A stretch of 64,000 bases of DNA from Pareuzebyella sediminis (lineage in GTDB: Bacteria > Bacteroidota > Bacteroidia > Flavobacteriales > Flavobacteriaceae): assembly GCF_008367235.1 (NCBI RefSeq), contig NZ_VTZS01000001.1:868001-932000 (forward strand), given 5' to 3'. A program made the position numbers and the translations under genes. Shown here piece by piece: positions 45,943 to 62,727 of the stretch. Position 1 is the first letter of the stretch. Every line of letters begins with the position of its first letter. The notes beneath the pieces are model-generated. The model had not been told where the DNA came from. It did not search any database and saw only the letters and a program-made list of their open reading frames with translations.

Positions 45943-45960
45943 CACCTAAAAACTTTCAAA

Positions 45961-47091
45961 ATGAAGAATTTAACAGGCATTGTTCTCATAGTGCTACAGA
46001 TGGCTCTAGGTTGGTCACAGGAATCCGCCAGACCTTCCACGGTTGAGCCGCTACGTGTTGGTGTAGTCGGCCTGGTTCACGATCATGTAGGTTGGATCTT
46101 AGATCGTGGGAAAATGGGAGACATCGAGATTGTGGGCATCGTCGAGCCAAATAAAGAGTTGGCCAAGAGACGATTAAAACGTTATGGATATTCCATGGAT
46201 CTGGTTTATGATACTCTTGAAGAAATGGTGGAAGCCACCAAGCCCGAGGCCGTCAATGCCTTCAACAGTACATACGATCATTTGAAAACAGTGCAGTATT
46301 GCGCCCCGAGGGGCATTCATATAATGGTGGAGAAGCCACTGGCCGTTAGTTGGGAACATGTCAAAGAAATGGCTGCCTTGGCCAAAAAACACAATATTCA
46401 CCTGCTTACCAATTATGAGACCACTTGGTATGGAAGCAATCATAAGGCCTACTCGTTCATCAAATCGAAAAATGCCATCGGTGATACGCGTAGAATAATC
46501 TTTCATACAGGACATAAGGGACCGATTGAAATTGGTTGCACCCCGGAATTTTTAGCGTGGTTGACCGATCCTATTCTTAATGGAGCAGGAGCGTTGATGG
46601 ACTTCGGCTGTTACGGGGCAAACCTTACGACTTGGCTTATGGATGGCACCCCTCCGGAATCGGTTACTTGCCTTACCAAACAGATAAAGCCGGCGCTGTA
46701 TCCAAAAGTTGATGATGATGCCACGATTATTTTGAACTACCCTGAGGCCGAGGTTATCATCCAGGCCTCATGGAACTGGCCCCATAACGTTAAGGATATG
46801 GAAGTATACGGCACGACCGGTTTCATCAAATGTAAGAATGGCACCAATATGGAAATAATGACCGATGAAAAGAAAGGAATGTCAGAAATAAAGGCCGACC
46901 CCTTGGCCAAAGGGTATGATGATCCTTTTGCCTTATTTCAAAAGGTCGTAAAAGAAGATTATAAGATTCACCCTAACGACCCTACAGCCCTTGAAAATAA
47001 TATTCTAGTAGTTCAAATTCTCGAAGCGGCCAAAGAATCGGCCAAAACAGGGCAAACCATACTATGGAAAGAGATGTACCCTTCGCAATAA
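45961..47091 (+). CDS. Sec-exported Gfo/Idh/MocA oxidoreductase
   Basis: A 376-residue protein with a Sec-type signal peptide (GIVLIVLQMALGWSQ) and no twin arginine. The fold motifs are VGVVGLVHDHVGWIL (a variant of the GxGxxG loop), HIMVEKPLAVSWEH and GALMDFGCYGANLTTWLM. Exported enzymes of this family usually leave through Tat with bound NADP, so a Sec signal is unusual; either it folds without tight cofactor or the signal anchors it in the membrane. Shares the transcript with the upstream GDSL gene. Confidence 0.84.
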   Translation: MKNLTGIVLIVLQMALGWSQESARPSTVEPLRVGVVGLVHDHVGWILDRGKMGDIEIVGIVEPNKELAKRRLKRYGYSMDLVYDTLEEMVEATKPEAVNAFNSTYDHLKTVQYCAPRGIHIMVEKPLAVSWEHVKEMAALAKKHNIHLLTNYETTWYGSNHKAYSFIKSKNAIGDTRRIIFHTGHKGPIEIGCTPEFLAWLTDPILNGAGALMDFGCYGANLTTWLMDGTPPESVTCLTKQIKPALYPKVDDDATIILNYPEAEVIIQASWNWPHNVKDMEVYGTTGFIKCKNGTNMEIMTDEKKGMSEIKADPLAKGYDDPFALFQKVVKEDYKIHPNDPTALENNILVVQILEAAKESAKTGQTILWKEMYPSQ

Positions 47092-47283
47092 TTCAGTACT
47101 TGACAAAAATAGAAACAACCGAAAAACTGAGGGTTTCAGATAGCACCTTAAAAGAAGAATAGAAAAGAACCGACCTCCATTGTTGCTAACGAACGCCTCA
47201 TAAAACCCTTTTTTTCGGAAAGGTGCATAGTTCAAACCTCAATTTTCTTTCTATATTCAACTTTTGTAACTAATAGATAGCAA

Positions 47284-49008
47284 ATGTCATTAACAGATAC
47301 GGCTACAATATCAGAGAAGCGACCTGATTCCGAGCAGGAAAAATGGGACACGATAATTATAGGTTCAGGAGTAGGTGGGTTGGCCACTGCTATCTGCCTA
47401 GCCCGATCCGGCCAGAAAGTTTTGGTGCTTGAACAACATGATGTACCTGGTGGTTGGTGCCATAGCTTTTACCTGAACGGACATCGCTTTACGCCCGGCG
47501 TTCATTATTTAGGTCTTTTGGGCGAAGGTGAACCCACCAACGATCTGTATCGCGGATTAGGTATAGCCAACGACTTGGTTTTCTTCAGGATGAATCCAGA
47601 GGCCTACGAACATGTGTATATCGGCGAAAACCATTTTGATTTTCCCGCTAGTTATGAAAAATTGATTGAAAGGCTTTCGCAGAGGTTCCCAAGGGAAAAG
47701 AAGCGCATCGAGACCTATCTGAACTTGATACGCAAAGTGAGCGAAGAACTCTATTCCCTACCTTATATCAAGGGTTTCTGGCAAAAATTGACCCTGCCCT
47801 ATCGCACCAGGCACTTTGGTAAATATGGAATGTTCAGCCTCCAAAGGGTTATCAAATGGCATATAAAAGATCGACTACTTCGCAATATCTTGAATGTACA
47901 ATGTGGTGACCACGGGGTGTCTCCGAAAAAAGTACCCTTCGTTTTACATAGTGCGACTATGTACCACTATTTACAAGGAGGTTATTACCCTATGGGGGGT
48001 GGAGGAGCCTTGGTCAAGGCCATGACGAATGTCATTAAACGATTTAATGGGGTTATTCGCACAAAGGAAGCCGTGCAGCTAATAATATTGGATGGTGATC
48101 ATAAAAAACGAGCTGTTGGTGTGGTTCTTCAAAACGGCACGCATATATATGCTGATCGAATCGTCTCGAATGTAGATGTCGGTATTACGTATAATACATT
48201 GGTAGGCACTCAAAACCTGAGTGCCAAACTCCAGAAAAAATTAGAGAACACTACCTATTCATGTACTTCCTTAATGTTATTTCTGACGGTGGATATGGAT
48301 TTACGGAAGGCGGGTATGGATTCTGGTAATATATGGATGATGCCCAATCGTGATACGGCCGATATTTACGAAGGGATATCGAAAAACGACATTTCCAAGG
48401 GTGAGGCCTTCGAAGCGATGTTCATCAGTTGTACTACCCTTAAAGACCCTACCAGTTTTGATGGAAAACATCACACGCTAGAGGTGATAACCTACATTGA
48501 TTACAAGGCATTCGAAAAGTTCGCCGATAAACACGAGGCCCGTTCGCCCGAATACCTCGAATTCAAGGAAGTCTTGACCCAAAAAATGCTCAAAGGACTC
48601 GAAAAAGTAATACCTGGTATTACCTCACATATTGTACATTGCGAATTAGGAACTCCGTTAACCAATGAATTCTATATCAATACTACTAGAGGAAATGTAT
48701 ATGGTACCGAAAAAAGCCTCCGCCATATCGGCCCTTTCGCCTATCGTGCAAAAAGTGAAATCGAAAACCTATACCTATGCGGCGCCAGTATCCTTTCCCA
48801 TGGCGTAGCAGGTGCCTCCCATTCTGGAGTAGAAACAGCCGCCCAAATTCTGGGTTGTACTTCGGACGAGCTTAAATCTCCAGCAGAAGATCAAAAGCTT
48901 AGAATTTATGAGGCCGAAGATAGCAGCGATTATCCCGAATGGATATTGAATAAAATAAAAGTACGTCACAAAAAAAGCTCCCCTAGAGCTTTAAGTAAAA
49001 CTTCTTAA
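47284..49008 (+). CDS. RetSat/CrtI-like FAD oxidoreductase
   Basis: A 574-residue flavoprotein. The FAD motif is IIGSGVGGLATAICLARSGQKVLVLEQ (residues about 25-52) followed by DVPGGWC, and the C-terminal LYLCGASILSHGVAGASHSG is the second FAD segment. Order and length fit phytoene desaturase/all-trans-retinol 13,14-reductase relatives. No carotenoid biosynthesis genes are nearby, so the substrate is open (a polyunsaturated isoprenoid or quinone side chain is possible). No signal peptide. Confidence 0.86.
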   Translation: MSLTDTATISEKRPDSEQEKWDTIIIGSGVGGLATAICLARSGQKVLVLEQHDVPGGWCHSFYLNGHRFTPGVHYLGLLGEGEPTNDLYRGLGIANDLVFFRMNPEAYEHVYIGENHFDFPASYEKLIERLSQRFPREKKRIETYLNLIRKVSEELYSLPYIKGFWQKLTLPYRTRHFGKYGMFSLQRVIKWHIKDRLLRNILNVQCGDHGVSPKKVPFVLHSATMYHYLQGGYYPMGGGGALVKAMTNVIKRFNGVIRTKEAVQLIILDGDHKKRAVGVVLQNGTHIYADRIVSNVDVGITYNTLVGTQNLSAKLQKKLENTTYSCTSLMLFLTVDMDLRKAGMDSGNIWMMPNRDTADIYEGISKNDISKGEAFEAMFISCTTLKDPTSFDGKHHTLEVITYIDYKAFEKFADKHEARSPEYLEFKEVLTQKMLKGLEKVIPGITSHIVHCELGTPLTNEFYINTTRGNVYGTEKSLRHIGPFAYRAKSEIENLYLCGASILSHGVAGASHSGVETAAQILGCTSDELKSPAEDQKLRIYEAEDSSDYPEWILNKIKVRHKKSSPRALSKTS

Positions 49009-49031
49009 TTCAGAAATCAGTAAAGGATATA

Positions 49032-50480
49032 ATGAAAAATCGCATTGCCATCTTCGCCATTCTTTGGGCCGTGACAGCCTGTAAAGAGATAAAAAAGGAA
49101 GAAAAACTCTCCGAGCACATCAAGCCTAACATTGTGTACATATTGGCCGACGACTTAGGCTATGGAGATTTAAGCTTTACCGGTCAAACTAAATTCGAAA
49201 CCCCCAATATCGACAGGCTGGCCCGACAAGGCTTGTTTTTTACCCAGCACTACTCCGGGGCAACGGTTTGTGCCCCTTCCCGTTCGGCCCTGATGACAGG
49301 GCTACACACGGGGCATACTCCCGTTCGCGGCAATAAAGAGGTTCAGCCTGAAGGCCAATGGCCCCTTCCTGCAGAGACCATAACCTTGGCGGAGAGACTA
49401 CAGCAAAAAGGGTACACCACAGGGGCTTTTGGAAAGTGGGGACTTGGATATCCTGGTTCTGAAGGCGATCCTTTAAATCAAGGCTTTGATCGATTTTATG
49501 GCTATAATTGTCAACGTCTTGGACACAATTATTACCCTTATTATTTATGGGATAATGACAAGAAACAGGATTTGAAAGAAAACGAAGGTCTGAAAAAGGG
49601 CCAATATGCCCCCTTACTGATTCACGAACAGGCACTATCTTTTATCGAGACCTACAAAGAAAGGCCTTTTTTTCTCTACTATCCCAGTATAATTCCACAT
49701 GCTGAATTGGTCGCCCCGAAGAAATATATGGACCAATACCAAGGGGAATTCGAACCTGAAAAACCCTTTGAAGGTAAAGACGGTGGTGAAGGATATCGAC
49801 AAGGGCCTTACGAATCTCAGGAAAACCCCCATGCCGCCTTTGCGGCAATGGTCACCTTGTTGGATGACCAGGTGGGAGAAATTATGTCAAAACTTGATGA
49901 GCTGGGGCTTGCAGAAAACACTTTGGTAATTTTCACTTCTGATAACGGTCCTCATTTGGAAGGGGGCGCAGACCCTGATTATTTTGATAGCAACGGACCT
50001 TTTAGAGGATACAAAAGGGATTTGTACGAAGGAGGTATCCACGTTCCGATGATAGCCCGATGGAAAGGAAAAATTAAAGAAAATAGTAAAACCAACCATG
50101 TATCCGCTTTTTGGGACATAATGCCTACCCTTCTAGACGCCGTTGACGGTGAGTCGGGAGTAAATGGGGACGGCATCTCTTTTTTACCTACTCTTTTAGG
50201 TAGGGGAAATCAAGCCGAGCATAAAAGCTTGTACTGGGAGTTTCACGAAAAAGGAGGGCGACAAGCCCTTAGAAAAGGTGATTGGAAGTTGGTTCGCTAT
50301 AATGTCGACAAAAACGGTCCTTATGAGCTTTATGATTTAAGCAATGATCCGGGCGAAACAAAAGATCTTGCTCGGCAAATGCCCGATAAGGTCTCAGAAT
50401 TATCGAAGATTCTTGAATCTAGTAGGACACCTTCCGAGATTTTCCAATTCGGGCAAAATGCCTACCAAGCTGAACCCTGA
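49032..50480 (+). CDS. Sulfatase (formylglycine type), lipoprotein
   Basis: A 482-residue type I sulfatase with lipobox AVTAC (Cys17). Metal residues in ILADDLGYGD (Asp40, Asp41) and the maturation motif C80-A-P-S-R with TG following, where Cys80 becomes formylglycine, are present; FTSDNGPHLEGG gives the remaining metal ligands. It would remove sulfate from a sulfated sugar or polysaccharide at the cell surface. It lies 23 bases after the RetSat-like gene and is convergent with the KduD-like SDR; the sulfatase-maturing enzyme is not in the window. Confidence 0.92.
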   Translation: MKNRIAIFAILWAVTACKEIKKEEKLSEHIKPNIVYILADDLGYGDLSFTGQTKFETPNIDRLARQGLFFTQHYSGATVCAPSRSALMTGLHTGHTPVRGNKEVQPEGQWPLPAETITLAERLQQKGYTTGAFGKWGLGYPGSEGDPLNQGFDRFYGYNCQRLGHNYYPYYLWDNDKKQDLKENEGLKKGQYAPLLIHEQALSFIETYKERPFFLYYPSIIPHAELVAPKKYMDQYQGEFEPEKPFEGKDGGEGYRQGPYESQENPHAAFAAMVTLLDDQVGEIMSKLDELGLAENTLVIFTSDNGPHLEGGADPDYFDSNGPFRGYKRDLYEGGIHVPMIARWKGKIKENSKTNHVSAFWDIMPTLLDAVDGESGVNGDGISFLPTLLGRGNQAEHKSLYWEFHEKGGRQALRKGDWKLVRYNVDKNGPYELYDLSNDPGETKDLARQMPDKVSELSKILESSRTPSEIFQFGQNAYQAEP

Positions 50481-50527: not shown

Positions 50528-51298
50528 TTAACGTCCCATCCACCCCCCGTCGACCAGCATGACTTGGCCGTTCATATACCTTGAGGCTGCCGAGCATAAA
50601 AAAACAATAGGGCCCTTAAAATCATCGGGCTGCCCCCATCTCCCAGCGGGTATTCGAGCAAGAATTGATTCGGAACGCTCCGGATTATTGCGCAAAGCCT
50701 CTGTATTATCCGTACTGATATAACCAGGTGCAATCGCATTGACATTAACACCTTTTCCTGCCCATTCATTGGAAAAAGCCATGGTCATCTGACCCACCGC
50801 CCCTTTGCTTGCGGCATAGCCTGGCACGGTGATACCTCCCTGAAAGGTCAAGAGGGAAGCCGTGAAAACAATTTTGCCATCGCCCCTTGCTACCATCTCC
50901 TTTCCGATTTCACGAGTAATTATGAACTGGGCGGTCTGATTAATCTCGATCACCTTGTCCCAATACTCGTCGGAGTGCTCAACAGCAGGGGCCCGTAATA
51001 TTGTTCCGGCATTATTCACTAAAATGTCGATTTGTGGAAAATCGTCCTTCACTTGGTTGATAAATGCATATAAAGAATCCCTTTTTCCAAAATCGCAAGT
51101 ATAGGCCTTAAATTTTCTTCCTAGGCCTTCTACCTCCTGCTCCACCATACTTCCATGCTTTTCCAAAGTAGCACTTACCCCAATGATATCGGCTCCTGCT
51201 TCGGCTAGGCCTAAGGCCATAGCTTTTCCAATACCTCTTTTACAACCTGTTACCAGTGCGGTTTTTCCCTTTAGACTAAATTGATTCAGTATATTCAT
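50528..51298 (-). CDS. KduD-like SDR dehydrogenase
   Basis: A 256-residue short-chain dehydrogenase. ALVTGCKRGIG is the NAD loop, LVNNAG the structural motif, TASLLTFQGG...GYAASKGA the Ser-Tyr-Lys active site, and IAPGYISTDNTEALR the substrate loop, all close to 2-deoxy-D-gluconate 3-dehydrogenase KduD. In a fucose pathway a similar SDR is the 2-keto-3-deoxy-L-fuconate dehydrogenase, a plausible role. Last gene in the three-gene minus-strand unit; 83 bases after the zinc ADH. Confidence 0.85.
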   Translation of the reverse strand: MNILNQFSLKGKTALVTGCKRGIGKAMALGLAEAGADIIGVSATLEKHGSMVEQEVEGLGRKFKAYTCDFGKRDSLYAFINQVKDDFPQIDILVNNAGTILRAPAVEHSDEYWDKVIEINQTAQFIITREIGKEMVARGDGKIVFTASLLTFQGGITVPGYAASKGAVGQMTMAFSNEWAGKGVNVNAIAPGYISTDNTEALRNNPERSESILARIPAGRWGQPDDFKGPIVFLCSAASRYMNGQVMLVDGGWMGR

Positions 51299-51381
51299 CT
51301 TTTGTGTTAAATATGGTTTGATTTTTTAAAATTTGCGGTATCGTGAAATCATCGTGCCCCCTAAAATCGGTCGCGGTTATG

Positions 51382-52398
51382 TTATAACTGACAATCCATA
51401 AGTATTTTCATGCCGTCGGGGTTTTGATCGATATTCTCAAAAACTTTTTGAATATTACTCAGAGGCTGCACATCGGTAATCATGTTTTCGAAAGGTAGCT
51501 CGTTGGCAGTTATTAGAGTAATGGCCCTCTCATAATCCTCCCTTTCATATACACGGGCACCAATCAGCTTTAATTCTTTCCAGAAAAATTTAAAGAGGTC
51601 TACCTCTCTTTTCTGGCCGTGAATAGCCACCATAAGAATTCTTCCTCGAATTCCGGCGACTTCCGTCATCATGTCCAGTGCGGGTTGAACCCCCGCGACT
51701 TCGAACACGACATCAGCCCGACGACCTTCCGTTTTTTCTTTGACATATTCGACGAAATCTACCTTTGTCGGGTTTATAGCGTTCAGACCAAGCTCCTTCG
51801 CTTTGAGTATTCTTTTTTCATTTACTTCAGAAACAATCACACGTGCACCGGCATGCTTGGCCACCATCGCTACTAGAAGCCCAATGGGCCCTCCTCCTAT
51901 TACAACCGCCGTTTCGCCAGATTTAAGGCCACTTAGACGTACATCATGAACCGCTACAGATAGGGGTTCTATTAAAGCCGCCAACTTCAAATCGGTCTCC
52001 CCTTTGAGTTTATGAAGCGTAAAAGCCGGCACGTTCCAATATTGTTGCATGGAACCTGGACTATCAATTCCGATGAACTTTAGATTTTCGCAGATATGGT
52101 TAAAACCTTTGTCGGATGGTTGTGCCCCCCTATCATCTAATGGGCGAACAACTACCTTATCACCGACGGCGTATCCGCTTACCTCTTCCCCTACAGCATC
52201 TACAGTACCGGACATTTCGTGGCCAATGGTCATTGGTATGGGTACTCTTTTATCCATCATGCCATGATATATATGAACATCGGTACCACAAACCCCTGTG
52301 TAAGCGACCTTTATTCTCACCTCGTCTGCTCGTGGCTTTTCCATCTGCCTTTCGACAATTGAAAATGTTTTATTACCGGTATATAGGGTAGCTCTCAA
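51382..52398 (-). CDS. Zinc-type alcohol dehydrogenase lacking the structural-zinc cysteines
   Basis: A 338-residue medium-chain dehydrogenase starting with TTG (MRATLYTGNK, family N-terminus); an ATG five bases upstream opens only two codons in another frame. Catalytic residues are in YTGVCGTDVH, TIGHEMSG and ALIEPLSV; VVIGGGPIGLLVAMVAK binds NAD. The usual structural-zinc loop CxxCxxCx7C is replaced by PLDDRGAQPSDKGFNHICEN, keeping only one cysteine. Relatives oxidise sugar acids or polyols (sorbitol, threonine, galactonate). Middle gene of the PhyH-ADH-SDR unit. Confidence 0.87.
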   Translation of the reverse strand: MRATLYTGNKTFSIVERQMEKPRADEVRIKVAYTGVCGTDVHIYHGMMDKRVPIPMTIGHEMSGTVDAVGEEVSGYAVGDKVVVRPLDDRGAQPSDKGFNHICENLKFIGIDSPGSMQQYWNVPAFTLHKLKGETDLKLAALIEPLSVAVHDVRLSGLKSGETAVVIGGGPIGLLVAMVAKHAGARVIVSEVNEKRILKAKELGLNAINPTKVDFVEYVKEKTEGRRADVVFEVAGVQPALDMMTEVAGIRGRILMVAIHGQKREVDLFKFFWKELKLIGARVYEREDYERAITLITANELPFENMITDVQPLSNIQKVFENIDQNPDGMKILMDCQL

Positions 52399-52487
52399 AG
52401 CATTTCAATTTTAAGGATTACAAGAATAGTATTTATAACCGTGTTACACAAAATCAAGGCTTCGGTTTTTTAAAATTTGAAGAAAGT

Positions 52488-53372
52488 CTATAAGCCCTCA
52501 AAAAGCAACGGAAAAAATTTCCCGCCCATTTTTTCCCCTTTGGAAATGGGAGGTACACCCGCCAAAAGTTGTTCATCGGTATTACTCACGGTTCCGTCAG
52601 CAAATACGTTAAGTACAAAAGCACGTCTACTCATTTCCGATTTATTTTCGTAAGAACCGTGTACCATCAACGGATGATGAAACGTAGCATAGCCCTTTTT
52701 GAGCTCAATGGCAACCGGATGACGGAACTGTTCCTTTTGTGCATCGCTCAGAGCACTGAACAACCCGTTCATATCACCTGCCAAGTTTGGGGCGTCGAGC
52801 AAGCCCCATCTATGACTTTTGGGAATATAATGAAGACAGCCATTTTCCGTAGTGGCGTCGTCCAGACCGCACCAACAAGTTAAGTGCTGCATGGCGATCG
52901 TACGGGTCCAATACGAGTAATCTTGATGCCAAGCCACTACCCCACCGTGTTTGGAAGGCTTGCAGAACAACTGATCATGCCAGAAACGTACCGGCCTATC
53001 TTCAAGAAGTTGATAGGCGGCCATTACGAATGCAGGGTTCCAAAGTACATCATGAAAACCTTTTGTAATTCTCCAATGGCCCAATGAATGGAATAGAACA
53101 GCATCCGGATCTTCCGATTCATTACTGTGAAATTCATAGAACAGGTCATGTGCCGGGTGTGAAGGGTCTAAAATTTCATCAAGCTCATTTCGCAATACCT
53201 CAATTTGATGATCCTCCAGCAGTTTAATGCCCGATACATATCCCTGCTCATGAAAATGAGCCACTTGATCATCGGTTAATCGATACTGATTCCACTGATC
53301 TTCAGATTTGGGCCATACAAACAAATCGGAAATTAGGCCGTGCCGGTTTGCTAAATCAAGAGCATTTGCCAT
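52488..53372 (-). CDS. Phytanoyl-CoA dioxygenase (PhyH) family protein
   Basis: A 294-residue Fe(II)/2-oxoglutarate dioxygenase. The metal triad is seen as WHQDYSYWTRT (His, Asp) and HHPLMVHGSY (distal His), and an RRAFVLNVF Arg could bind 2-oxoglutarate. The N-terminal VAHFHEQGYVSGIKLL helix is typical of the PhyH family. First gene of the minus unit, 61 bases from the divergent fucose cluster. In such company it may hydroxylate or demethylate a sugar derivative, but that is inferred; fatty-acid substrates are not suggested by neighbours. Confidence 0.86.
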   Translation of the reverse strand: MANALDLANRHGLISDLFVWPKSEDQWNQYRLTDDQVAHFHEQGYVSGIKLLEDHQIEVLRNELDEILDPSHPAHDLFYEFHSNESEDPDAVLFHSLGHWRITKGFHDVLWNPAFVMAAYQLLEDRPVRFWHDQLFCKPSKHGGVVAWHQDYSYWTRTIAMQHLTCWCGLDDATTENGCLHYIPKSHRWGLLDAPNLAGDMNGLFSALSDAQKEQFRHPVAIELKKGYATFHHPLMVHGSYENKSEMSRRAFVLNVFADGTVSNTDEQLLAGVPPISKGEKMGGKFFPLLFEGL

Positions 53373-53433
53373 TCTTATTAATTTTATATCATTTCCTCAA
53401 ATTTAGCAATTCAAAATTGTATTTTTAGCACCT

Positions 53434-54447
53434 ATGAAATATATAGTTTGTGAAAAACCGGGTCAATTTATCCTGAAGGAAAAGAAAAAACCTAAAAGAA
53501 AGCCAGGAGAAGCACTATTAAAGATAAAAAAGGTCGGTATATGTGGTACCGACTTTCATGCCTACGCCGGAAATCAAGCATTCTTCTCCTATCCCCGTAT
53601 TTTAGGTCATGAACTGGCTTCGCAGGTGGTTGAGATAGACGAGAATCCGCAGGGTATCAAAGCGGGAGACAACGTGGTCGTCATGCCCTATATTAGCTGT
53701 CAAAAATGTGTGGCCTGCCGCAACGGTAAAACCAATTGTTGTTCAAACATTCAAGTGTTGGGCGTACACACAGATGGCGGTATGCAAGACTACATCACCG
53801 TTCCAACAGCGTTATTATTACGCGCAGAGGGTTTGAGCGACAATCAAATGGCGGTGGTAGAACCCTTGGCAATCGGTGCACATGCGGTTCGCCGTTCAGG
53901 AGTAAAAGCAGGGGAAGCTATAGTAGTAGTAGGTTGTGGGCCTATTGGAATCGGAATAATGAAATTGGCACAAATAGCTGGTGCGAAGGTGATAGGCATA
54001 GATATGAACCAAAATCGTCTTGATTACGTATTGCGCGATATCGGTATTGACCATGCGATCCTTGGAGGGAAAAATGCCGTAGAAAAGGTAGCTGAAATAA
54101 CCGGAGGTGATTTGGCCACCGCTGTTTTTGACGCCACTGGGCATAAAGGAGCTTTAGAATCCGGACCGGATTATATGTCACATGGCGGAAGATATATTTT
54201 AGTGGGGCTATCAAAAGGCGAGCTTGCTTTCAAGCATCCAGATATCCATGCCAAGGAAACGACTATTCTTTGTAGTCGTAATGCCACGTTCGAAGATTTT
54301 GAAAATGTAATCTCCATTTTGAGAAAGGGAAAATTTCCGATAGAGTCTTTTGTGACCCACAACGCTTCTTTTTCTGAAATGATTGCAAATTTTGATCAAT
54401 GGCTAGACCCTAAGAGTGGGGTCATCAAAGCCACTGTTGACTTTTAA
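53434..54447 (+). CDS. Zinc-binding alcohol dehydrogenase with intact structural zinc site
   Basis: A 337-residue medium-chain dehydrogenase. Catalytic zinc residues in KVGICGTDFHA, ILGHELASQ and VVEPLAIGA; structural zinc cysteines in SCQKCVACRNGKTNCC (all four present); NAD loop VVVGCGPIGIGIMKLAQ. It resembles L-galactonate/L-gulonate 5-dehydrogenases and other RspB-like enzymes. Heading the fucose-type unit it might oxidise fuconate or a keto-deoxy-fuconate; the exact step is not settled. Gap of 42 bases to the amidohydrolase. Confidence 0.87.
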   Translation: MKYIVCEKPGQFILKEKKKPKRKPGEALLKIKKVGICGTDFHAYAGNQAFFSYPRILGHELASQVVEIDENPQGIKAGDNVVVMPYISCQKCVACRNGKTNCCSNIQVLGVHTDGGMQDYITVPTALLLRAEGLSDNQMAVVEPLAIGAHAVRRSGVKAGEAIVVVGCGPIGIGIMKLAQIAGAKVIGIDMNQNRLDYVLRDIGIDHAILGGKNAVEKVAEITGGDLATAVFDATGHKGALESGPDYMSHGGRYILVGLSKGELAFKHPDIHAKETTILCSRNATFEDFENVISILRKGKFPIESFVTHNASFSEMIANFDQWLDPKSGVIKATVDF

Positions 54448-54489
54448 AACGTTCAGGAAAACAATTAACCTCTCAATGGCACAAACGTG

Positions 54490-55317
54490 ATGAAAATAGA
54501 TAGTCATCAACATTTTTGGTACTACGAGCCGGTAAAACATGCATGGATCGATGACGACATGGCCGAAATTCGTAAGAATTTCTTGCCCCAAGATTTGAAA
54601 ACGGTTTATCAGAATAACAATATAGATGGCTGCGTGGCCGTTCAAGCAGACCAGACTTTGGCCGAAACGGATTTCTTACTTGGGCTAGCCGGAGAAAACG
54701 ACTTTATAAAAGGTGTCGTGGGATGGGTCGATTTAAGATCAGACCGTGTGGATTCCGATTTAGAAAGATATTATTCTTACGAAAAATTAAAAGGTTGGCG
54801 CCATATCGTTCAAGGTGAAACCGACCATAACTTTTTATTGCGTCCTGCATTTCTCCGAGGAATCTCTTACTTGGAAAAATATGGTTATGCGTATGATATT
54901 TTGGTTTTCCCTCATCAATTGGGGGCCGTTTTGGAATTTGTCAAACATTTTCCACATCAAAAATTTGTAATCGACCATATGGCAAAACCTTATATAAAAG
55001 ACGGGTACTATGACGGCTGGGCGGTACTTATGCAAGAAATTGCCAAGCACGAAAATGTACATTGCAAGGTGTCGGGCATGATTACGGAAGCAAATTATCA
55101 TTCTTGGACAGCGGAACAGCTACATCCGTATTTAGCACTCGTACTAGAGGCCTTTGGCCCTAAAAGGTTGATGTTCGGTTCTGACTGGCCGGTATGTCTT
55201 GTCGCCGGTAATTATACGCAAGTACAACAAATAATCATTGATTTTATCGCAACCCTTAGCGTTGACGAACAAGAAAAAATAATGGGACTGAATGCCGTAC
55301 AGTTCTACAACCTATAA
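54490..55317 (+). CDS. L-fuconolactonase/L-rhamnonolactonase-type amidohydrolase
   Basis: A 275-residue metal-dependent hydrolase starting at the ATG of MKIDSHQHFWYYEP (a GTG codon precedes it). Metal ligands: HQHFW histidines, KFVIDHMAKPYIKD, and the Asp in MFGSDWPVCLVAG. This is the COG3618-type amidohydrolase that opens fucono- or rhamnono-lactones to the acid. With an SDR, FucP and mutarotase genes following directly, L-fucono-1,5-lactonase activity is a strong inference. Confidence 0.88.
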   Translation: MKIDSHQHFWYYEPVKHAWIDDDMAEIRKNFLPQDLKTVYQNNNIDGCVAVQADQTLAETDFLLGLAGENDFIKGVVGWVDLRSDRVDSDLERYYSYEKLKGWRHIVQGETDHNFLLRPAFLRGISYLEKYGYAYDILVFPHQLGAVLEFVKHFPHQKFVIDHMAKPYIKDGYYDGWAVLMQEIAKHENVHCKVSGMITEANYHSWTAEQLHPYLALVLEAFGPKRLMFGSDWPVCLVAGNYTQVQQIIIDFIATLSVDEQEKIMGLNAVQFYNL

Positions 55318-55349
55318 ACACATGAATAAAATATAACAAAAGTATAACC

Positions 55350-56144
55350 ATGGATTTAAACTTAAGAGGAAAAGTTGTAGTCATAAGTGGAGCAGCCGGT
55401 AAAGAAGGTAGCATCGGGGAGACAATTTTGCAGCGTTTAGTAGGTGAAGGGGCCATTCCGGCTCTTATTGATAGAAACGATAGAGGCCATGGGTATATAA
55501 AAGCTATTCAGCAAAAAGGCATCGATGCCATTTTCTGCCAGACCGATGTGACAAACCCGAAAGAAATTGAACATGCCTTGACCTCCATATCAGAAAAATA
55601 TGGTCGAATCGATGTAGTATTGAACAATGTAGGAGTAAACGATGGGGTCGGTCTTGATGCTTCATACGAAGAATTCATGGATTCGCTCAAACTCAATATG
55701 GTCAGTTACTTTCTCATTGTTAAACACGCCCTACCTTTATTGAAAAAATCCAAGGGAAATATTTTAAATATCGGATCAAAAGTAGCACTGACAGGCCAAG
55801 GGCGCACTTCAGGGTATGCCGCTTCGAAGGGCGGAGTCCTTGCGCTGACCCGTGAATGGGCCGTTGACCTGATTCCGTATGGTATTCGATCCAATGCTAT
55901 AATTATCGCCGAAAGTTGGACCCCTTCCTACGATACATGGATCAAGACCATACCCGATGGAGCTAAAAAACTTCAATCCATAGTTAAAAAAATCCCTCTT
56001 GAAAACCGCATGACGACCCCTGATGAAATTGCGAACGTATGCCTCTTTACCATTTCCGACCGCTCATCACATACCACGGGACAATATATTTTTGTCGATG
56101 GAGGATATGTACATTTAGACCGGGCCCTTTTGACCGAAGATTAA
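55350..56144 (+). CDS. SDR dehydrogenase, L-fucose dehydrogenase candidate
   Basis: A 264-residue short-chain dehydrogenase. The NAD loop VVISGAAGKEGSIGETI is a variant of TGxxxGxG (an inserted EG pair), NNVGVND is the structural motif and GSKVALT...GYAASKGG gives Ser, Tyr, Lys. Between the lactonase and FucP genes it is the best candidate to oxidise L-fucose (or another 6-deoxyhexose) to its lactone. The alternative is a later dehydrogenase step. Separated from the lactonase gene by 32 bases. Confidence 0.85.
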   Translation: MDLNLRGKVVVISGAAGKEGSIGETILQRLVGEGAIPALIDRNDRGHGYIKAIQQKGIDAIFCQTDVTNPKEIEHALTSISEKYGRIDVVLNNVGVNDGVGLDASYEEFMDSLKLNMVSYFLIVKHALPLLKKSKGNILNIGSKVALTGQGRTSGYAASKGGVLALTREWAVDLIPYGIRSNAIIIAESWTPSYDTWIKTIPDGAKKLQSIVKKIPLENRMTTPDEIANVCLFTISDRSSHTTGQYIFVDGGYVHLDRALLTED

Positions 56145-56164
56145 AACAACCAATAGTATCGATT

Positions 56165-57490
56165 ATGACCAAAAACCAAAAAACACCGGTAGTCGCAAAA
56201 TCTGTGATAGTTCCTTTTATCTTGATTACGTCTTTGTTTGCCCTTTGGGGGTTGGCAAATGATATGACAAACCCCATGGTTCGAGGCTTTCAAAAAGTAC
56301 TTGAGTTAACCAATACCCAAGCATCTTTGGTGCAACTGGCATTTTACGGAGGCTATTTTACTATGGCCATTCCAGCAGCCTTATTCGTGAATAGATTTTC
56401 TTATAAAAAAGGGGTTTTACTAGGCTTAGCCTTATATGCCGCTGGCGCCTTATTGTTTTATCCGGCAGCAGCGAAAGAGAGTTATGGTTTTTTCTTGGCC
56501 GCCCTCTATATTCTTACCTTTGGGCTTGCCTTTCTCGAAACGACCTCAAACCCATATATCTTGTCGATGGGTGCTGAAGAAACGGCGACCCAACGCTTGA
56601 ATTTTGCACAGATGTTCAACCCGATGGGGTCGATATTGGGATTGTTAATTGCACAAAACTTTGTGCTGGGAGCACTGCAATCTGATGATACCACGGCAGA
56701 CGGTACGCCCATATATGACACACTGCCCGAAGCAGCCAAGAGCGTCATACGAACAGCGGATCTTGAGATTATAAGAAATCCTTATGTCATATTAGGTCTG
56801 GTTGTGCTCTTTTTCTTTGCAATGATCAGTATCATCAAAATGCCTCAAAACAAGCATCAAGAGGCTAAGGTTAAATTTTCGGATTCGGTCAAACGATTAT
56901 GGAAACAACCTAAATTTACCTTTGGTGTAGTTGCCCAAGCATTCTACGTGGGATGCCAAATTATGTGCTGGACGTACGTGTATCAATATGCCGAAACTTT
57001 GGGAATCGATGCTAAATCTGCGGTGTGGTATGGCCTCGCCGGATACATTGTCTTTTTAATCGGACGTACTGTAGGGACCGCCTTGCTCACAAAAATAGAT
57101 TCTGGAAAATTATTGATGTATTTTGGAATCGGGGGCATGCTCACCTTGATAGGCGCCATTTATTTGCCCGGAATGCTGGGTATTTATTCGCTAATAGCCA
57201 CTTCGTTGTTCATGTCCATTATGTTCCCAACGATTTACGGTATCGCCCTGGAAGGTCAGGGAGAGGATGCAAAGTTCGGGGCCGCATTTTTGGTCATGGC
57301 CATTGTCGGTGGTGCACTCCTACCCTACCTACAGGGCTATATACTTGACTGGGGAGGTGTGGGTTACGAAGACATCACCGTCTTGGGAGCCTCCGAAATG
57401 CGTTTCTCGTTCGTTCTTTCCTTACTTTGTCTTTTGGTGGTCGTGCTTTATGGAAGAGCCGTGTATCGAAAATACCATCGACATCTTTAA
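56165..57490 (+). CDS. fucP: L-fucose:H+ symporter
   Basis: A 441-residue MFS transporter with about 12 membrane helices, starting at the ATG at 56165 (the frame upstream is inside the SDR gene). The family opening VPFILITSLFALWGLANDMTNPMV, the FLETTSNPYILSMG loop and NFAQMFNPMGSILGLLIAQ match FucP; cytoplasmic loop YGIALEGQGEDAKFGAAFLVMAIVGGA is also conserved. Imports L-fucose (some relatives take glucose/galactose) with protons. Follows the SDR by 20 bases and precedes the mutarotase by 12. Confidence 0.94.
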   Translation: MTKNQKTPVVAKSVIVPFILITSLFALWGLANDMTNPMVRGFQKVLELTNTQASLVQLAFYGGYFTMAIPAALFVNRFSYKKGVLLGLALYAAGALLFYPAAAKESYGFFLAALYILTFGLAFLETTSNPYILSMGAEETATQRLNFAQMFNPMGSILGLLIAQNFVLGALQSDDTTADGTPIYDTLPEAAKSVIRTADLEIIRNPYVILGLVVLFFFAMISIIKMPQNKHQEAKVKFSDSVKRLWKQPKFTFGVVAQAFYVGCQIMCWTYVYQYAETLGIDAKSAVWYGLAGYIVFLIGRTVGTALLTKIDSGKLLMYFGIGGMLTLIGAIYLPGMLGIYSLIATSLFMSIMFPTIYGIALEGQGEDAKFGAAFLVMAIVGGALLPYLQGYILDWGGVGYEDITVLGASEMRFSFVLSLLCLLVVVLYGRAVYRKYHRHL

Positions 57491-57502
57491 TTTATAGTTT
57501 AT

Positions 57503-57850
57503 ATGAACGATACCAAAAGATTTTGTTTTTCTTGCGACCTCAAGGACAATCCCGAACTTATCGAAAAATATAAGGCGTATCATGCCCCTGGAAAAGTGTG
57601 GCCCGAAATCGTTAAGAGCATTAAGGATGCGGGAATCATCGATATGCAAATATACCTCACCGGTAACCGAATGTTTATGGTTATGGACGTTGACGAAACG
57701 TTCGACCCGGTACACAAAGCCAAAATGGATGCGGATAATCCCAAAGTTCAAGAGTGGGAAGCGCTCATGTGGAAATTTCAAGAAGCGTTACCATGGGCCA
57801 AAGAGGGAGAAAAATGGACACCCCTTGAGAAAATATTTCAATTAATCTAA
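57503..57850 (+). CDS. L-rhamnose/L-fucose mutarotase-type protein
   Basis: A 115-residue protein of the RhaM family (COG3254). LKDNPELIEKYKAYHAPGKVWPE and KDAGIIDMQIYLTGNRMFMVMD carry the His and Asp/Tyr residues of the sugar pocket, and WPEIV...MWKFQEALPWAKEGEKW is conserved. It interconverts alpha and beta anomers so that the dehydrogenase receives the right form. Last gene in the unit with FucP. Confidence 0.93.
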   Translation: MNDTKRFCFSCDLKDNPELIEKYKAYHAPGKVWPEIVKSIKDAGIIDMQIYLTGNRMFMVMDVDETFDPVHKAKMDADNPKVQEWEALMWKFQEALPWAKEGEKWTPLEKIFQLI

Positions 57851-57888: not shown

Positions 57889-59412
57889 CTAGGCCAAGAT
57901 ATCTTTAACCACATGACCGTGAACATCAGTCAAACGGTAACGTCTGCCTTGATGTTTGAACGTCAAACGTTCATGGTCTATTCCAAATAGATGAAGAAGG
58001 GTCGCCTGAAAATCGTGAACATGCACTGGGTCTTTCACCACATTATAGCTAAAATCATCAGTTTCGCCATAGGTAAAACCAGGCTTTACCCCAGCCCCGG
58101 CCATCCACATCGTAAAAGCCTTTGGGTGGTGATCTCGACCGTAGGTGGTACTGGTCAATTGACCCTGTGAATAGACCGTACGGCCAAATTCACCTCCCCA
58201 TACAACCAAGGTATCTTCGAGCATTCCCCGCTGCTTCAGGTCTTTAATCAACGCCGCGTTCGCCTGATCGGTCAGTTTGTTCTGGTTACGAACTCCACTA
58301 GGGCAACCAATGTGCTGATCCCATCCTTGGTGATAAAGTTGTACAAACTTCACGTCCTTTTCTAAGAGTTTTCGGGCCATCAAACAGTTGGCCGCATAGG
58401 TGCCGGGATCTCGACTATCTTCACCATACATCTCAAAAATATAATCCGGTTCATCGGAGATATCCGTAACCTCTGGAACGGAAGTCTGCATACGAAAAGC
58501 CATTTCATACTGGGCCATACGTGCATTTATCTCGGGGTCTCCATACACATCATGCTGTACTTGATTGAGTTTTGACAGATAGTCTAACATATTACGCCGG
58601 TCTGTACCGTCGTAATTCTCAGGATCACTCAAATAAAGTACAGGATCTTTCCCTGATCGAAATTGCACCCCTTGATGCTCGGTAGGTAAAAAACCATTTC
58701 CCCATAAACGCGAATACAGAGGCTGCCCACCCATATTCTTGGTAATCAACGTAATAAAGGTAGGTAGATTATCATTGTCAGACCCTAATCCATAACTTAA
58801 CCATGAGCCTATCGAAGGGCGCCCTGGGAGTTGGCTTCCGGTCTGCAAAAAGGTAATGGCCGGATCGTGATTAATAGCGTCGGTCTGCATTGATTTTATA
58901 AAGCACAAATCATCTACGACCTCCGAGGTATGGGGCATTAACTCACTTACCCATGCCCGACATTTCCCATATTGCTTAAAATCCATGATTGATGGAGCTA
59001 TGGGAAAAACCGTCTGGTCAGCACTCATACCGGTCAACCGTTGACCCTGTCGTACCGATGGTGGAAGATCTTTTCCGAACATGTCCTTAAGTTTCGGTTT
59101 ATAATCCCACATATCGAGCTGCGAGGGGCCCCCACTTTGAAAAAGATAGATAATACGTTTGGCCTTAGGTTCGAAATGGGGCAAGCCTAGCGCATTTTGG
59201 GTATAAGATGCCTGTACAGCACCCTGCCCGAGTCGCGCTGGACCTTTCCCAGAAATGGCACCCCACGCCTTATCTGCATTCAAAAGGCTCCCCAGGGCCA
59301 TGGCACCGATACCCAATGAAGACTTGGTCAAGAAATTTCTTCGGTCCAGCTTCCTTTCGATATCTTGAAGGTCTTTGTTCGTCGATTTTAATACTTTTTG
59401 ATTATGGCACAT
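57889..59412 (-). CDS. DUF1501 family protein, Tat-exported
   Basis: A 507-residue protein. The N-terminus has a twin-arginine signal DRRNFLTKSSLGIGAMALG (residues about 23-42). The domain resembles alkaline-phosphatase-fold DUF1501 proteins: FQSGGPSQLDMWDYKP, FVQLYHQGWDQH, VVWGGEFGRT and YGRDHHPKAFTMWMAG hold conserved Asp/His/Thr/Gly. Sulfatase-like hydrolysis has been proposed for the family but is unproven. Three bases after the PSD1-DUF1553 gene, so the two are one unit. Confidence 0.88.
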   Translation of the reverse strand: MCHNQKVLKSTNKDLQDIERKLDRRNFLTKSSLGIGAMALGSLLNADKAWGAISGKGPARLGQGAVQASYTQNALGLPHFEPKAKRIIYLFQSGGPSQLDMWDYKPKLKDMFGKDLPPSVRQGQRLTGMSADQTVFPIAPSIMDFKQYGKCRAWVSELMPHTSEVVDDLCFIKSMQTDAINHDPAITFLQTGSQLPGRPSIGSWLSYGLGSDNDNLPTFITLITKNMGGQPLYSRLWGNGFLPTEHQGVQFRSGKDPVLYLSDPENYDGTDRRNMLDYLSKLNQVQHDVYGDPEINARMAQYEMAFRMQTSVPEVTDISDEPDYIFEMYGEDSRDPGTYAANCLMARKLLEKDVKFVQLYHQGWDQHIGCPSGVRNQNKLTDQANAALIKDLKQRGMLEDTLVVWGGEFGRTVYSQGQLTSTTYGRDHHPKAFTMWMAGAGVKPGFTYGETDDFSYNVVKDPVHVHDFQATLLHLFGIDHERLTFKHQGRRYRLTDVHGHVVKDILA

Positions 59413-59415
59413 GTG

Positions 59416-62400
59416 TTATCTTTTCATTATGGTTGCATCCGAATTCATAATGGTGCTTGCGACTACAGCATTAGCCGCTATCAAAGGATAATTTTCACTT
59501 TTTACCTGAAACTCACCAGTATTTAACCATCCTTTGGCTTTATCCGGATTTTTCAAAAATTTTGTGTACTCTTCATACCGAAGCGCCTCAAGAACTTCAA
59601 GTTCTTCTGAAGAGGCACTTCTGCCTGTCAATCTTCTAAAAACAGATTGAATTCCCTGTTTGATATCGGAATAAGCCGTCATACTATGGCCTAGCACCCT
59701 TGAAGCTTCGACATATGTCGGGTCGTTCATCACGACCAAAGCCTGTAGCGGCGTATTGGTTTCTTGTCTACGTACTGAACAAAATGAACGTTCAGGAGCG
59801 TCGAAGGTGGCTATGGTGGGGTTGGGCACCGAACGTTTCCAAATGGTATACATTCCCCTACGGTACAATTTTTTCCCCGTGTCTTCCTTATAACTTGCCC
59901 CGTTGATTTTCCAGAGCCCCTCGGGCTGGTAAGGCCGAACGCTAGGTCCCCCAATCTCACTGTTCATCAGACCCGATGCTACCAAAACATTATTTCTGAG
60001 CATCTCCCCCGTGAGCCTCTTAGAGGGCCCTCGAGCTAATAGGCGATTTTCTGGGTCCATCGCCAAAAGTGAGGGGCTTGACTTAGAAGCCTGCCTATAT
60101 GCATTCGACATGACCATCATTTTCATTAATGATTTTACGTTCCATCCAGATTCCATAAATTCAATGGCCAACCAATCAAGCATAGCTGGGTGGGAAGGCA
60201 GTTCGCCCTGATTTCCAAAGTCTTCAACGGTTCGTACAATACCTGTTCCGAATATATTTTTCCAATAGCGGTTAACCGCCACCCTAGCCGTTAAAGGATT
60301 CTTTTTATCGGTAATCCATTGCGCCAGCCCCATTCTATTTTTAGGCAGACTATCAGGATACGGAAAAATTCGTTCCGGGGTTCTCGTATCGACCCGATCA
60401 CCCGGCATGTCGTATTGACCCCGTTCTAAAACATAGGTCTCCCGCTTTTCTTCCATTTCCTTCATCACCATAATATCCTGAATAGCATCGACCGTATCGA
60501 CGGCTTTTCTTTTGATGAGCTCCAATTCTTTCATTTCCTTTTGATAGCTCTTATCAAAGCTTTCTAAGTAATAGGTTTGAAGCGCTGTTCGCTCTTGTTC
60601 GGAGAGCAGGTAAGATTCTTTGTTCAAGAGTTTTTGGAATCTTTCAAAGTCCGCTAGTTGTAGTACTTCCAACCCCGTCAATGCCCTTTCATAAACCTGT
60701 ATGTCATCTACCACGGCACCACCGATACCCTTTCCTCTCCACCGGGCACCGACTTGTAAACCAGGGTCTTCAGGTACTCCTTTCATTCCATAGGCATGTT
60801 TGTTGAACACGATATCCTTATATAGATTATCGACTTCGGTCTCCATATCCAAAAGAGTATCGTCTTGATAGACTTTTATGCCCTGTGCCTTGCTCGAACC
60901 ATCATAAGTAAGGGTCAACTGAAGCCATTTTTCTTTGGGAAGCTTCTTCGTTGAATATTTTACTATCGCATTGGCAGGGTGAAGGTGTGCGAATAGCACC
61001 TCTAGTTTATTGTCCTTTAAAGCTAGATGATACCCCCGGAAGTTATAGAGTTTGGCACCTATGCCTTTATGTATGATAACGCCGGTCTCCAAGTCTTCTG
61101 GTATGTAGATACGGATACTCACGCTGAATGATTCGTTGCGATGAAATATGCCAACACCATTGAGATCTAACCAAGCATCGCCGTCTAATTGAAGTCCGTA
61201 ACCCTCAAACCCTTTTGAGAATTTTGCCTGCTGGTCTTTCGAATGTTGCCTTTTCATGATACCCTTTTTACCAGGTCGCTCCTTATTCGCCAACGAGGGC
61301 CCTTCGAAGTCAAAGAAAGCCGTTCGACCCTGTGGCACCTTAGACGTTGCCATGCTTTTTTGATTTCCTGATTGTAACCAGGCTTTTGCTTTTTCCAAAC
61401 CCTGGGATTTTCGGTCCTGTAAGGCCGTGCGTTTATCGTCTATCAAAGCATCTATAGATGCCAATAATTCATTCTGTTCTTTGGTGGGCAACAATAGTGT
61501 CGGGGCAGGCATCGACCAATCGAAAGAAATTTGCCCCGATTCACGTACGTTATTAAAAAAACTGTACATCTCATAATAGTTCTTTTGAGAAATGGGGTCG
61601 TATTTATGGTCATGGCATTTTGCACAGGCCATGGTTAAACCCAGTAATCCTTCACTCACGGTATTGGTACGATCTGCCACATATTCGGCGCGAAACTCCT
61701 CGTCGATAATTCCTCCTTCGGCGTTCTGCGGGTGTAGTCTATTAAAGGTCGTTGCCAACACCTGTTCTGTAGATGCATTTGGCATCAGATCTCCGGCTAA
61801 TTGCCAAGTTATGAACTGGTCATATGGCATATTTTCATTGAATGCTTTAATCACCCAATCGCGCCATTTAGAAACATCTCTATACCGATCAACGGTATAA
61901 CCATGCGTGTCTGCGTATCGAGAAAGATCCATCCAGTCAAGGGTCATCTGTTCTCCATAATGGGGCGATGTCAAAAGCCGGTCGACCTGTTTTTCATAGG
62001 CGTCGGAGGAAGTGTCTTTCAAAAAGTTTTCTATTTCTTCGAGGGTTGGAGGAAGGCCCGTTAAATCTAAACTCAACCGGCGTAATAAAATTTCCCTGTC
62101 CGCCCTAGCACTATAACCCTTATTTTTTTCTTCCAATCTGGCGAGAAAGAAGTTATCAATGGGGTTTGAAACAAGTTCTTTAGCGCTTACATCGGGCAGA
62201 GCGACCTTCTTTGGTGCAAGAAAAGCCCAGTGATCTTTATATTCGGCACCTTCTTCTACCCATTTTACCAACAGGGCCTTTTCGCGTGCCGAGAGATTAA
62301 GGTGAGAAGATGGCTCCGGCATAATGATTTCCGCATCTTTCGTCAGAATACGCCTGATTATTTCGCTATTGGCGGGCTCTTTAGGACGTATGGCATAAAT

Positions 62401-62655
62401 TCCAGGGGTATTTTTCGATTCGGCATAGGCCAATTCACGAAGGTGTAATTGTAAACCTCCTTTTACCTTTGACTGGTCCGGACCATGGCAAATAAAACAT
62501 TTATCCGAAAGAATGGGCTTTACATGTAAATTGAAATCGACCTTTTCAGGTAGGTCTCCATAAGCAACGGCCACATCTTCGGGAAGTTCGATCCCGTTGC
62601 AGGAAGCTAATATATACAATCCCAAAAGGACAAGACCTTTCTTCAAATTCCGCAT
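59416..62655 (-). CDS. PSD1/DUF1549/LamG/DUF1553 multi-domain lipoprotein
   Basis: A 1,079-residue protein; the ATG at 62655 begins a lipoprotein signal (lipobox YILASC, Cys19), unlike the start 63 bases upstream. Order: PSD1 heme-type segment C53-F-I-C-H57 (about 45-110), DUF1549 (about 160-370, with a second CAKCHDH near 345), a LamG/concanavalin-like domain (about 445-670) with LDGDAWLDLNG and FRGYHLALKDNK, then DUF1553 (about 775-1035). Found next to DUF1501 genes in planctomycetes and marine Bacteroidetes; function unproven, carbohydrate binding by LamG and redox through heme are likely. Confidence 0.9.
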   Translation of the reverse strand: MRNLKKGLVLLGLYILASCNGIELPEDVAVAYGDLPEKVDFNLHVKPILSDKCFICHGPDQSKVKGGLQLHLRELAYAESKNTPGIYAIRPKEPANSEIIRRILTKDAEIIMPEPSSHLNLSAREKALLVKWVEEGAEYKDHWAFLAPKKVALPDVSAKELVSNPIDNFFLARLEEKNKGYSARADREILLRRLSLDLTGLPPTLEEIENFLKDTSSDAYEKQVDRLLTSPHYGEQMTLDWMDLSRYADTHGYTVDRYRDVSKWRDWVIKAFNENMPYDQFITWQLAGDLMPNASTEQVLATTFNRLHPQNAEGGIIDEEFRAEYVADRTNTVSEGLLGLTMACAKCHDHKYDPISQKNYYEMYSFFNNVRESGQISFDWSMPAPTLLLPTKEQNELLASIDALIDDKRTALQDRKSQGLEKAKAWLQSGNQKSMATSKVPQGRTAFFDFEGPSLANKERPGKKGIMKRQHSKDQQAKFSKGFEGYGLQLDGDAWLDLNGVGIFHRNESFSVSIRIYIPEDLETGVIIHKGIGAKLYNFRGYHLALKDNKLEVLFAHLHPANAIVKYSTKKLPKEKWLQLTLTYDGSSKAQGIKVYQDDTLLDMETEVDNLYKDIVFNKHAYGMKGVPEDPGLQVGARWRGKGIGGAVVDDIQVYERALTGLEVLQLADFERFQKLLNKESYLLSEQERTALQTYYLESFDKSYQKEMKELELIKRKAVDTVDAIQDIMVMKEMEEKRETYVLERGQYDMPGDRVDTRTPERIFPYPDSLPKNRMGLAQWITDKKNPLTARVAVNRYWKNIFGTGIVRTVEDFGNQGELPSHPAMLDWLAIEFMESGWNVKSLMKMMVMSNAYRQASKSSPSLLAMDPENRLLARGPSKRLTGEMLRNNVLVASGLMNSEIGGPSVRPYQPEGLWKINGASYKEDTGKKLYRRGMYTIWKRSVPNPTIATFDAPERSFCSVRRQETNTPLQALVVMNDPTYVEASRVLGHSMTAYSDIKQGIQSVFRRLTGRSASSEELEVLEALRYEEYTKFLKNPDKAKGWLNTGEFQVKSENYPLIAANAVVASTIMNSDATIMKR

Positions 62656-62727
62656 AGCATCATCAAGTGATTCAATATTATCATGGTCAAAGCCGTTCTC
62701 CGTATATCTGTGACTCACAAAAGTAAC

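Follow-up and report, generated by a model that had tools for sequence, protein, structure and literature searches.

Oxidative catabolism of L-fucose and L-galactose has been described for several bacteria. The non-phosphorylating L-fucose pathway of the Xanthomonas type, as outlined in excerpts of PMC11199699, involves a short-chain dehydrogenase/reductase (SDR), a lactonase, a fuconate dehydratase and a fumarylacetoacetate hydrolase (FAH)-type hydrolase, for each of which the genome studied here holds a probable counterpart. Combined loci for L-fucose, L-fuconate and L-galactonate, in which an LgoD-type gene is joined to the fucose oxidation set together with uxaA and uxaB or uxaF, are already known from Halomonas (PMC5507952, in excerpt). 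In Phocaeicola (Bacteroides) vulgatus, L-galactose is converted to D-tagaturonate, which then enters hexuronate catabolism, and the lgu cluster of Luteolibacter runs through L-galactonate, D-tagaturonate, D-altronate and 2-keto-3-deoxygluconate (KDG), one trunk serving two sugars (both as related in excerpts of PMC12632266). Here we compare with these systems a locus of Pareuzebyella sediminis, which occupies positions 50528-57850 of the window, that is, of the whole 64,000-nucleotide stretch analyzed (C10:868001-932000; the genome comprises 4.9 Mb in 20 contigs).

We consider it likely, from sequence comparison, that the plus-strand operon of this locus is an oxidative trunk common to L-galactose and its 6-deoxy form L-fucose, equipped with a branch gene of the LgoD type. 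The bacterium is of a seaweed-associated type, and the operon probably serves to import and oxidize L-galactose in addition to L-fucose. The initial annotation had called the locus one of fucose oxidation; this fucose-only label needs correction because ADH1, the first gene of the operon, is LgoD-like. Our reading draws on the grouping of ADH1 with LgoD, the mutual exclusion of UxaB and FAH in relatives' loci, the 15 of 26 genomes without a dehydratase orthologue, a run of Uxa genes on contig C13 and the single lactonase match of the genome. It draws further on the lactonase tree, on loci with an aldo-keto reductase in place of the SDR, on Zobellia loci that adjoin porphyran demethylation genes, and on the Halomonas precedent.

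The plus-strand operon and its LgoD-type gene

ADH1 (53434-54447, plus strand), a zinc medium-chain dehydrogenase and proposed L-galactonate 5-dehydrogenase, shares 41% identity with LgoD of E. coli and 34% with RspB; for six further E. coli proteins the value does not exceed 28%. In a 32-row tree it forms a clade with LgoD that leaves RspB outside, with a support of 94/95 that is slightly under the tool's threshold and with several long outgroup branches. Residues C37, H59, E60, C89, C92, C95, C103 and E143, which we read as zinc ligands, are invariant in 16 sequences, LgoD among them. ADH1 stays below the cut-off of NF007489 (203.8 bits vs 376), and neither of the two zinc dehydrogenases of the window (ADH1 and ADH2) passes an NCBIfam equivalog. 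The E. coli record names LgoD an L-galactonate oxidoreductase; it is described as L-galactonate-5-dehydrogenase in excerpts of PMC5507952, and D-tagaturonate is the next intermediate after L-galactonate (PMC12632266, in excerpt). ADH1 is LgoD-like, and the step catalyzed by LgoD has no place in the fucose route.

Downstream of ADH1, the lactonase (54487-55317, plus strand), an amidohydrolase-family protein and proposed L-galactono/L-fucono-lactonase, matches the L-fucono-1,5-lactonase family (NCBIfam FuconLaconase) over its full length (E 1.4e-80), with a score of 271 bits below the cut-off of 400. Its nearest solved structure is PDB 4dlf (E 1.2e-49). The SDR (55350-56144, plus strand), a proposed L-fucose/L-galactose 1-dehydrogenase, exceeds the L-fucose dehydrogenase equivalog cut-off (NCBIfam FucosDh, 351.5 bits vs 300) and lies nearest to PDB 4gkb (E 5.1e-73); both structures we take to be fucose enzymes of Burkholderia multivorans. 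The FucP-type sugar:H+ symporter (about 56162-57490, plus strand) scores 508.3 bits against a cut-off of 280.4 (TIGR00885); its open reading frame (ORF) is listed from 56039, and the family match begins at ORF residue 57. The RhaM-family aldose mutarotase (57503-57850, plus strand) passes Pfam rhaM (PF05336, 114.2 bits vs 23.4) and falls below the NCBIfam YiiL cut-off (20.4 bits vs 99.6).

All eight ORFs on the two strands are present as first described, and the intergenic region between the divergent operons (53373-53433) measures 61 bases, the start positions being 53372 for PhyH and 53434 for ADH1. Family scans and the nearest structures, 4gkb and 4dlf, agree with the earlier assignment of transport, mutarotation, sugar oxidation and lactone opening. 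An L-fucose-type dehydrogenase is indeed among these genes, but it is the SDR rather than a zinc ADH. Homology of FucP and the lactonase to non-fucose enzymes had been named as counter-evidence; both are nearest to fucose families, the lactonase nonetheless remaining below its curated cut-off. The plus-strand operon is real, conserved and made of ordinary enzymes.

In the proposed scheme, FucP would import the sugar and the mutarotase would equilibrate its anomers. The SDR would oxidize C1 to give a lactone, which the lactonase would open to L-galactonate or L-fuconate. ADH1 would then oxidize L-galactonate at C5 to D-tagaturonate, and this would proceed to pyruvate and glyceraldehyde 3-phosphate via UxaB, UxaA, KdgK and KdgA of a galacturonate operon on contig C13. 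L-Fuconate, in turn, would be handed to an L-fuconate dehydratase and a FAH-type hydrolase on contig C15, together with a candidate 2-keto-3-deoxy-L-fuconate (KDF) dehydrogenase on the same contig. Gene content, the descent of ADH1, the co-occurrence patterns and both back-ends of the genome are direct observations; each of these catalytic activities, and the sharing of the trunk, we infer.

Two remote back-ends and the loci of relatives

Genome-wide, there are eight enolase-family and three FAH-family matches, and the best of each adjoin on C15. The L-fuconate dehydratase (C15:107236-108579), of the enolase family, matches the Xanthomonas L-fuconate dehydratase (PDB 1yey) over its full length (E 4e-172) and no NCBIfam family at E <= 1e-60. 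Directly after it stands the FAH-type hydrolase (C15:108653-109510; FAA_hydrolase, E 1.6e-73), whose nearest NCBIfam family is the L-rhamnonate counterpart (337.7 bits, below the cut-off of 500). Upstream of the pair are an AraC-type regulator and SusC/SusD-like genes (by eye), downstream a GH29 gene (Pfam); no lactonase adjoins the dehydratase and hydrolase. The genome search that the initial annotation had called for located an L-fuconate dehydratase and an FAH-type hydrolase as neighbors, and its idea of a split pathway holds; both are absent, as reported, from the part of the window that was read, whereas the genome has them. Judged by sequence, the L-fucose back-end appears to be present but remote from the window operon.

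The KDF-dehydrogenase candidate lies 340 kb past this pair (C15:449336); no other gene of the own genome matches the SDR that is linked to FAH in locus L075 better (62% identity). The KduD-like SDR of the window, to which a keto-acid dehydrogenase role had been ascribed, reaches only 31% in the same comparison and was rejected as KDF 4-dehydrogenase. Two enolase-family genes just beyond the window (C10:935096 and C10:944486) were not retained as fuconate dehydratases, as the C15 gene has the top score among the eight and matches 1yey.

The D-tagaturonate drain would be found on C13, where UxaC, KdgK, KdgA, a TRAP transporter, UxaB and UxaA form a single run beside pectinase-like genes (partly by eye), with UxaB/UxaA at C13:551434-554503. 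UxaB scores 653.3 bits against a cut-off of 359, and UxaC and KdgA are also above their NCBIfam cut-offs. UxaA and KdgK are below theirs, UxaA having altronate/galactarate dehydratase domains. Against locus-linked forms from relatives, UxaA reaches 55-56% identity (four compared) and UxaB 45% (one compared). A second UxaA-type gene (C13:561441), only 30-32% identical to the same four forms, was rejected. L-Galactonate and D-altronate are epimers at C5 (PMC12632266, in excerpt).

We scanned 199 family genomes, own included, and found a lactonase match in 63. The matches fall into two main tiers of identity, A (64-75%) and B (about 46-59%), with weaker ones below. We then compared 40 loci, the window itself not counted, which come from 37 of the other 62 genomes that gave a lactonase match. 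The sample consists mostly of best and second copies rather than random picks, and it leaves out G120, G013, G082 and G075, in which the lactonase lies near a fuconate dehydratase. Contig ends cut regions L051, L061 and L071, so that absences there carry little weight. The SDR and FucP each occur in 31 of the 40 loci, ADH1 in 30, the mutarotase in 29, UxaA-type genes in 22, UxaB in 20, FAH in 15, the KDF-dehydrogenase candidate in 13, a fuconate dehydratase in 5 and an aldo-keto reductase in 4. All five plus-strand genes are present in 17 loci, and in 16 they follow the order ADH1, lactonase, SDR, FucP, mutarotase on one strand (other genes between them allowed), indicating that the set is no chance grouping.

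No locus contains both UxaB and FAH (20 vs 15 of 40; Fisher 8e-7, kinship ignored); five loci have neither. Altronate dehydratase accompanies the tagaturonate reductase UxaB in 19 of its 20 loci, and ADH1 does so in 19 of 20 as well, against 7 of the 15 FAH loci. FAH is also present wherever the KDF-dehydrogenase candidate occurs (13 loci). Where an aldo-keto reductase replaces the SDR, ADH1 and UxaB are present in each case (4/4). NCBIfam scans of one member per gene cluster place tagaturonate reductase and 2-keto-3-deoxy-6-phosphogluconate aldolase above cut-off and the KDG-kinase-like protein below. In Paenibacillus, Cohnella and Bacillus (L152, L158, L175) the genes run lactonase, UxaB, UxaA, aldo-keto reductase, ADH1. 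UxaA-type genes also occur in three FAH loci (L054, L079, L087). The latter two loci contain neither an enolase nor ADH1; their UxaA-type gene, next to FAH and the KDF-dehydrogenase candidate, is a possible candidate L-fuconate dehydratase.

The lactonase tree separates 9 rows from the 32 that include the window (support 100/98, bootstrap not settled). ADH1 accompanies 29 of the 31 relatives in the larger group; the smaller one consists of 8 loci with FAH and no ADH1, plus L076, which has ADH1 and UxaB. At the level of genomes, 26 carry an A-type lactonase (>= 64%, own included), and an orthologue of the C15 dehydratase (>= 73%) is found in 11 of them and in none of the other 15, one of which (G115) has a 43% relative with an internal stop and another (G051) is 88% complete. 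The operon thus persists without a fuconate dehydratase. Conversely, among the 21 genomes with a dehydratase orthologue, the A-type lactonase lies elsewhere in 11, a lactonase is found no more than about 8 kb away in 9, and one genome (66% complete) lacks any. In the own genome, the window gene is the single lactonase match at E <= 0.001; it must serve both sugars if L-fucose is oxidized in this way.

Sugar source and rival explanations

Named relatives were sought with the ADH1 alignment. The best 80 matches include Z. uliginosa and Zobellia russellii (80%) as well as Maribacter, among others, and do not include P. vulgatus. Both Zobellia loci (L116, L117) hold, in this order, GH29, ADH1, UxaA, UxaB, lactonase, SDR, FucP and mutarotase, and within the same 21 kb a P450 (Pfam), a ferredoxin, a reductase, an ADH, an esterase and PhyH. 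This ADH, beside the P450, matches PDB 8h2b (E 8e-238), which is ZoADH of Z. galactanivorans, from work on the demethylation of porphyran 6-O-methyl-galactose (PMC10033563, in excerpt). That work also included a gene deletion in Z. galactanivorans. According to the same excerpts, the chief building blocks of porphyran are L-galactose 6-sulfate together with D-galactose or anhydro-L-galactose; L-galactose is given as a main porphyran sugar and, in its anhydro form, as a main sugar of agar (PMC5613140, PMC10033563). Algal L-galactosides may be a source of the sugar. Eleven of the 40 loci also have a GH29 gene, and each of these holds both ADH1 and UxaB. The porphyranase model PF18206 gave no match in the own genome, and its control was equally silent.

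Several observations weigh against a trunk shared with L-galactose. The SDR and FucP pass fucose equivalogs. ADH1 occurs with FAH and without UxaB in 7 loci, so that it also belongs to fucose-type loci, and L076 combines ADH1 and UxaB with a lactonase of the other tree group. UxaA and UxaB lie outside the operon, on another contig and in a pectin-type locus. The Zobellia-type P450 was not found in the own genome (best match 24%, E 2.3e-4). The locus-linked GH29 is a Pfam alpha-L-fucosidase, which makes a fucoside source as possible as a galactoside one and does not tell the sugars apart, and the own GH29 genes are 20-28% identical to the three locus-linked ones tested, with one 72-residue stretch at 31%. 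Finally, a FucI gene is present (C17:59203; 1020 bits, above the cut-off of 850), by which L-fucose could go via an isomerase.

The same fucose equivalogs would suit an oxidative locus dedicated to L-fucose and split from its dehydratase and hydrolase, with ADH1 as an accessory oxidoreductase. Such a locus would agree with the fuconate dehydratase and FAH near a GH29 gene, with the only lactonase match lying in the window locus and with the seven loci that pair ADH1 with FAH. It sits poorly with the LgoD-like character of ADH1, with 20 of 40 relatives' loci that hold UxaB and never FAH, with the 15 A-type genomes that do without the dehydratase orthologue and with the sub-threshold score of the lactonase, and we regard it as unlikely. 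About equally unlikely, in our view, is an operon for L-galactose only, with L-fucose taking another route through FucI or with the C15 genes using L-fuconate from elsewhere. The UxaB/FAH exclusion, the descent of ADH1 and the strong FucI score would all accord with it. However, inspection by eye of the ORFs of 200 aa or more within the 20 kb surrounding FucI, to which the search was confined, revealed neither FucK nor FucA; the C15 pair has no lactonase of its own in a genome with one lactonase match, and the SDR passes the fucose equivalog.

Five loci (L052, L053, L059, L077, L081) have ADH1, FAH and the KDF-dehydrogenase candidate and no dehydratase cluster in the region read, as would be expected if ADH1 oxidized L-fuconate itself and the fucose route bypassed the dehydratase. 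The dehydratase may, however, sit outside the regions read, and the three FAH loci mentioned above have UxaA-type dehydratases. Moreover, we know of no enzyme that takes the product of L-fuconate oxidation into the FAH step, and we hold this explanation to be highly improbable. A trunk shared by L-galactose and L-fucose remains the reading we prefer.

Minus-strand operon, neighborhood and known systems

The minus-strand operon is a module separate from the plus-strand trunk. It comprises a PhyH-type Fe(II)/2-oxoglutarate dioxygenase (52488-53372; Pfam PhyH, 114.4 bits), ADH2, a Tdh-like medium-chain zinc dehydrogenase (51382-52398; Pfam, 34% to E. coli Tdh), and the KduD-like SDR (50528-51298; NCBIfam TIGR01832, 323.7 bits, just below the cut-off of 338.85). 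H149, D151 and H238 of PhyH are invariant in 19 sequences and form a putative iron triad; the predicted structure (mean pLDDT, a confidence score, of 59) was too poor for use. At E <= 1e-40, PhyH has matches in 14 of the 199 family genomes; an A-type lactonase is present in 10 of these, and in 8 it lies within about 12 kb of PhyH. The complete trio is found in one of the 40 relatives' loci, L070, and is thus much rarer than the plus-strand set. ADH2 and KduD rarely accompany PhyH, L070 having both and L068 KduD; close relatives of ADH2 lie near ADH1 in L070 (79%) and L126 (72%), and those of the KduD-like SDR beside the locus in L068 (84%) and L070 (90%).

In 7 of 19 aligned PhyH loci, the gene neighbors an ADH-esterase pair resembling the one in the demethylation clusters. 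The trio might remove or oxidize a modification, e.g. O-methyl, on L-galactose or L-fucose, as a 2-oxoglutarate-dependent stand-in for the absent P450 demethylase, but we consider this very doubtful. A P450 is present in only 2 of these 7 loci, five PhyH regions (L212-L216) have other neighbors, L215 among them having the ADH-esterase pair, and formaldehyde detoxification is reportedly not a function of the Zobellia ADH (excerpts of PMC10033563).

Gene names in the neighborhood were assigned by eye except where a family scan is cited. A planctomycete-type gene pair adjoins the locus (57889-62718) and also flanks it in L049, L050 and L056; we presume its members to be DUF1501 and PSD1/cytochrome genes. 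A similar pair lies beside the KDF-dehydrogenase candidate (C15:444-448 kb, by eye). Upstream, at 45256-50480, are an SGNH hydrolase-like protein, a Gfo/Idh protein, a desaturase-like protein and a sulfatase. Parts of this block recur beside the loci L069, L070 and L073, and similar genes adjoin PhyH away from the locus in L214 (by eye). Just beyond the window end, C10:928001-948000 holds a BASS-type transporter, an RraA-like protein, two enolase-family genes, SusC/D-like genes and a GntP-like gene (by eye); in L069 and L073, the transporter, the RraA-like gene and the first of the enolases are again found near the locus.

The locus offers a testable L-galactose route for marine flavobacteria; among the open-licence titles, abstract openings and excerpts covered we found no account of it, or of the fate of free L-galactose, in these bacteria. 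More generally, 'fucose' annotations can mask L-galactose use, since the dehydrogenase, the lactonase and FucP have the same appearance whichever of the two sugars is used; it is the LgoD-type gene that gives L-galactose away. If true, one lactonase supplying two distant back-ends would make a neat shared trunk.

Compared with the described systems, the locus is similar in route and distinct in arrangement. In the P. vulgatus pathway (Hobbs 2014), likened here by description and not by sequence, the first enzyme is reportedly an aldo-keto reductase, whereas the window has an SDR of the L-fucose-dehydrogenase family, FucP and a mutarotase. The Luteolibacter lgu cluster, likened by route and not by orthology, differs in its second sugar, which is L-glucose, entering via a C-4 epimerase (excerpts of PMC12632266). 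From the Xanthomonas-type pathway, as excerpted, our genome differs in that the set is split over contigs and an LgoD-type gene stands in the front operon. The Halomonas loci, to the extent covered by the excerpts of PMC5507952, have a TRAP transporter operon and keep the altronate steps inside the locus, whereas the window has FucP and leaves its back-ends to two other contigs.

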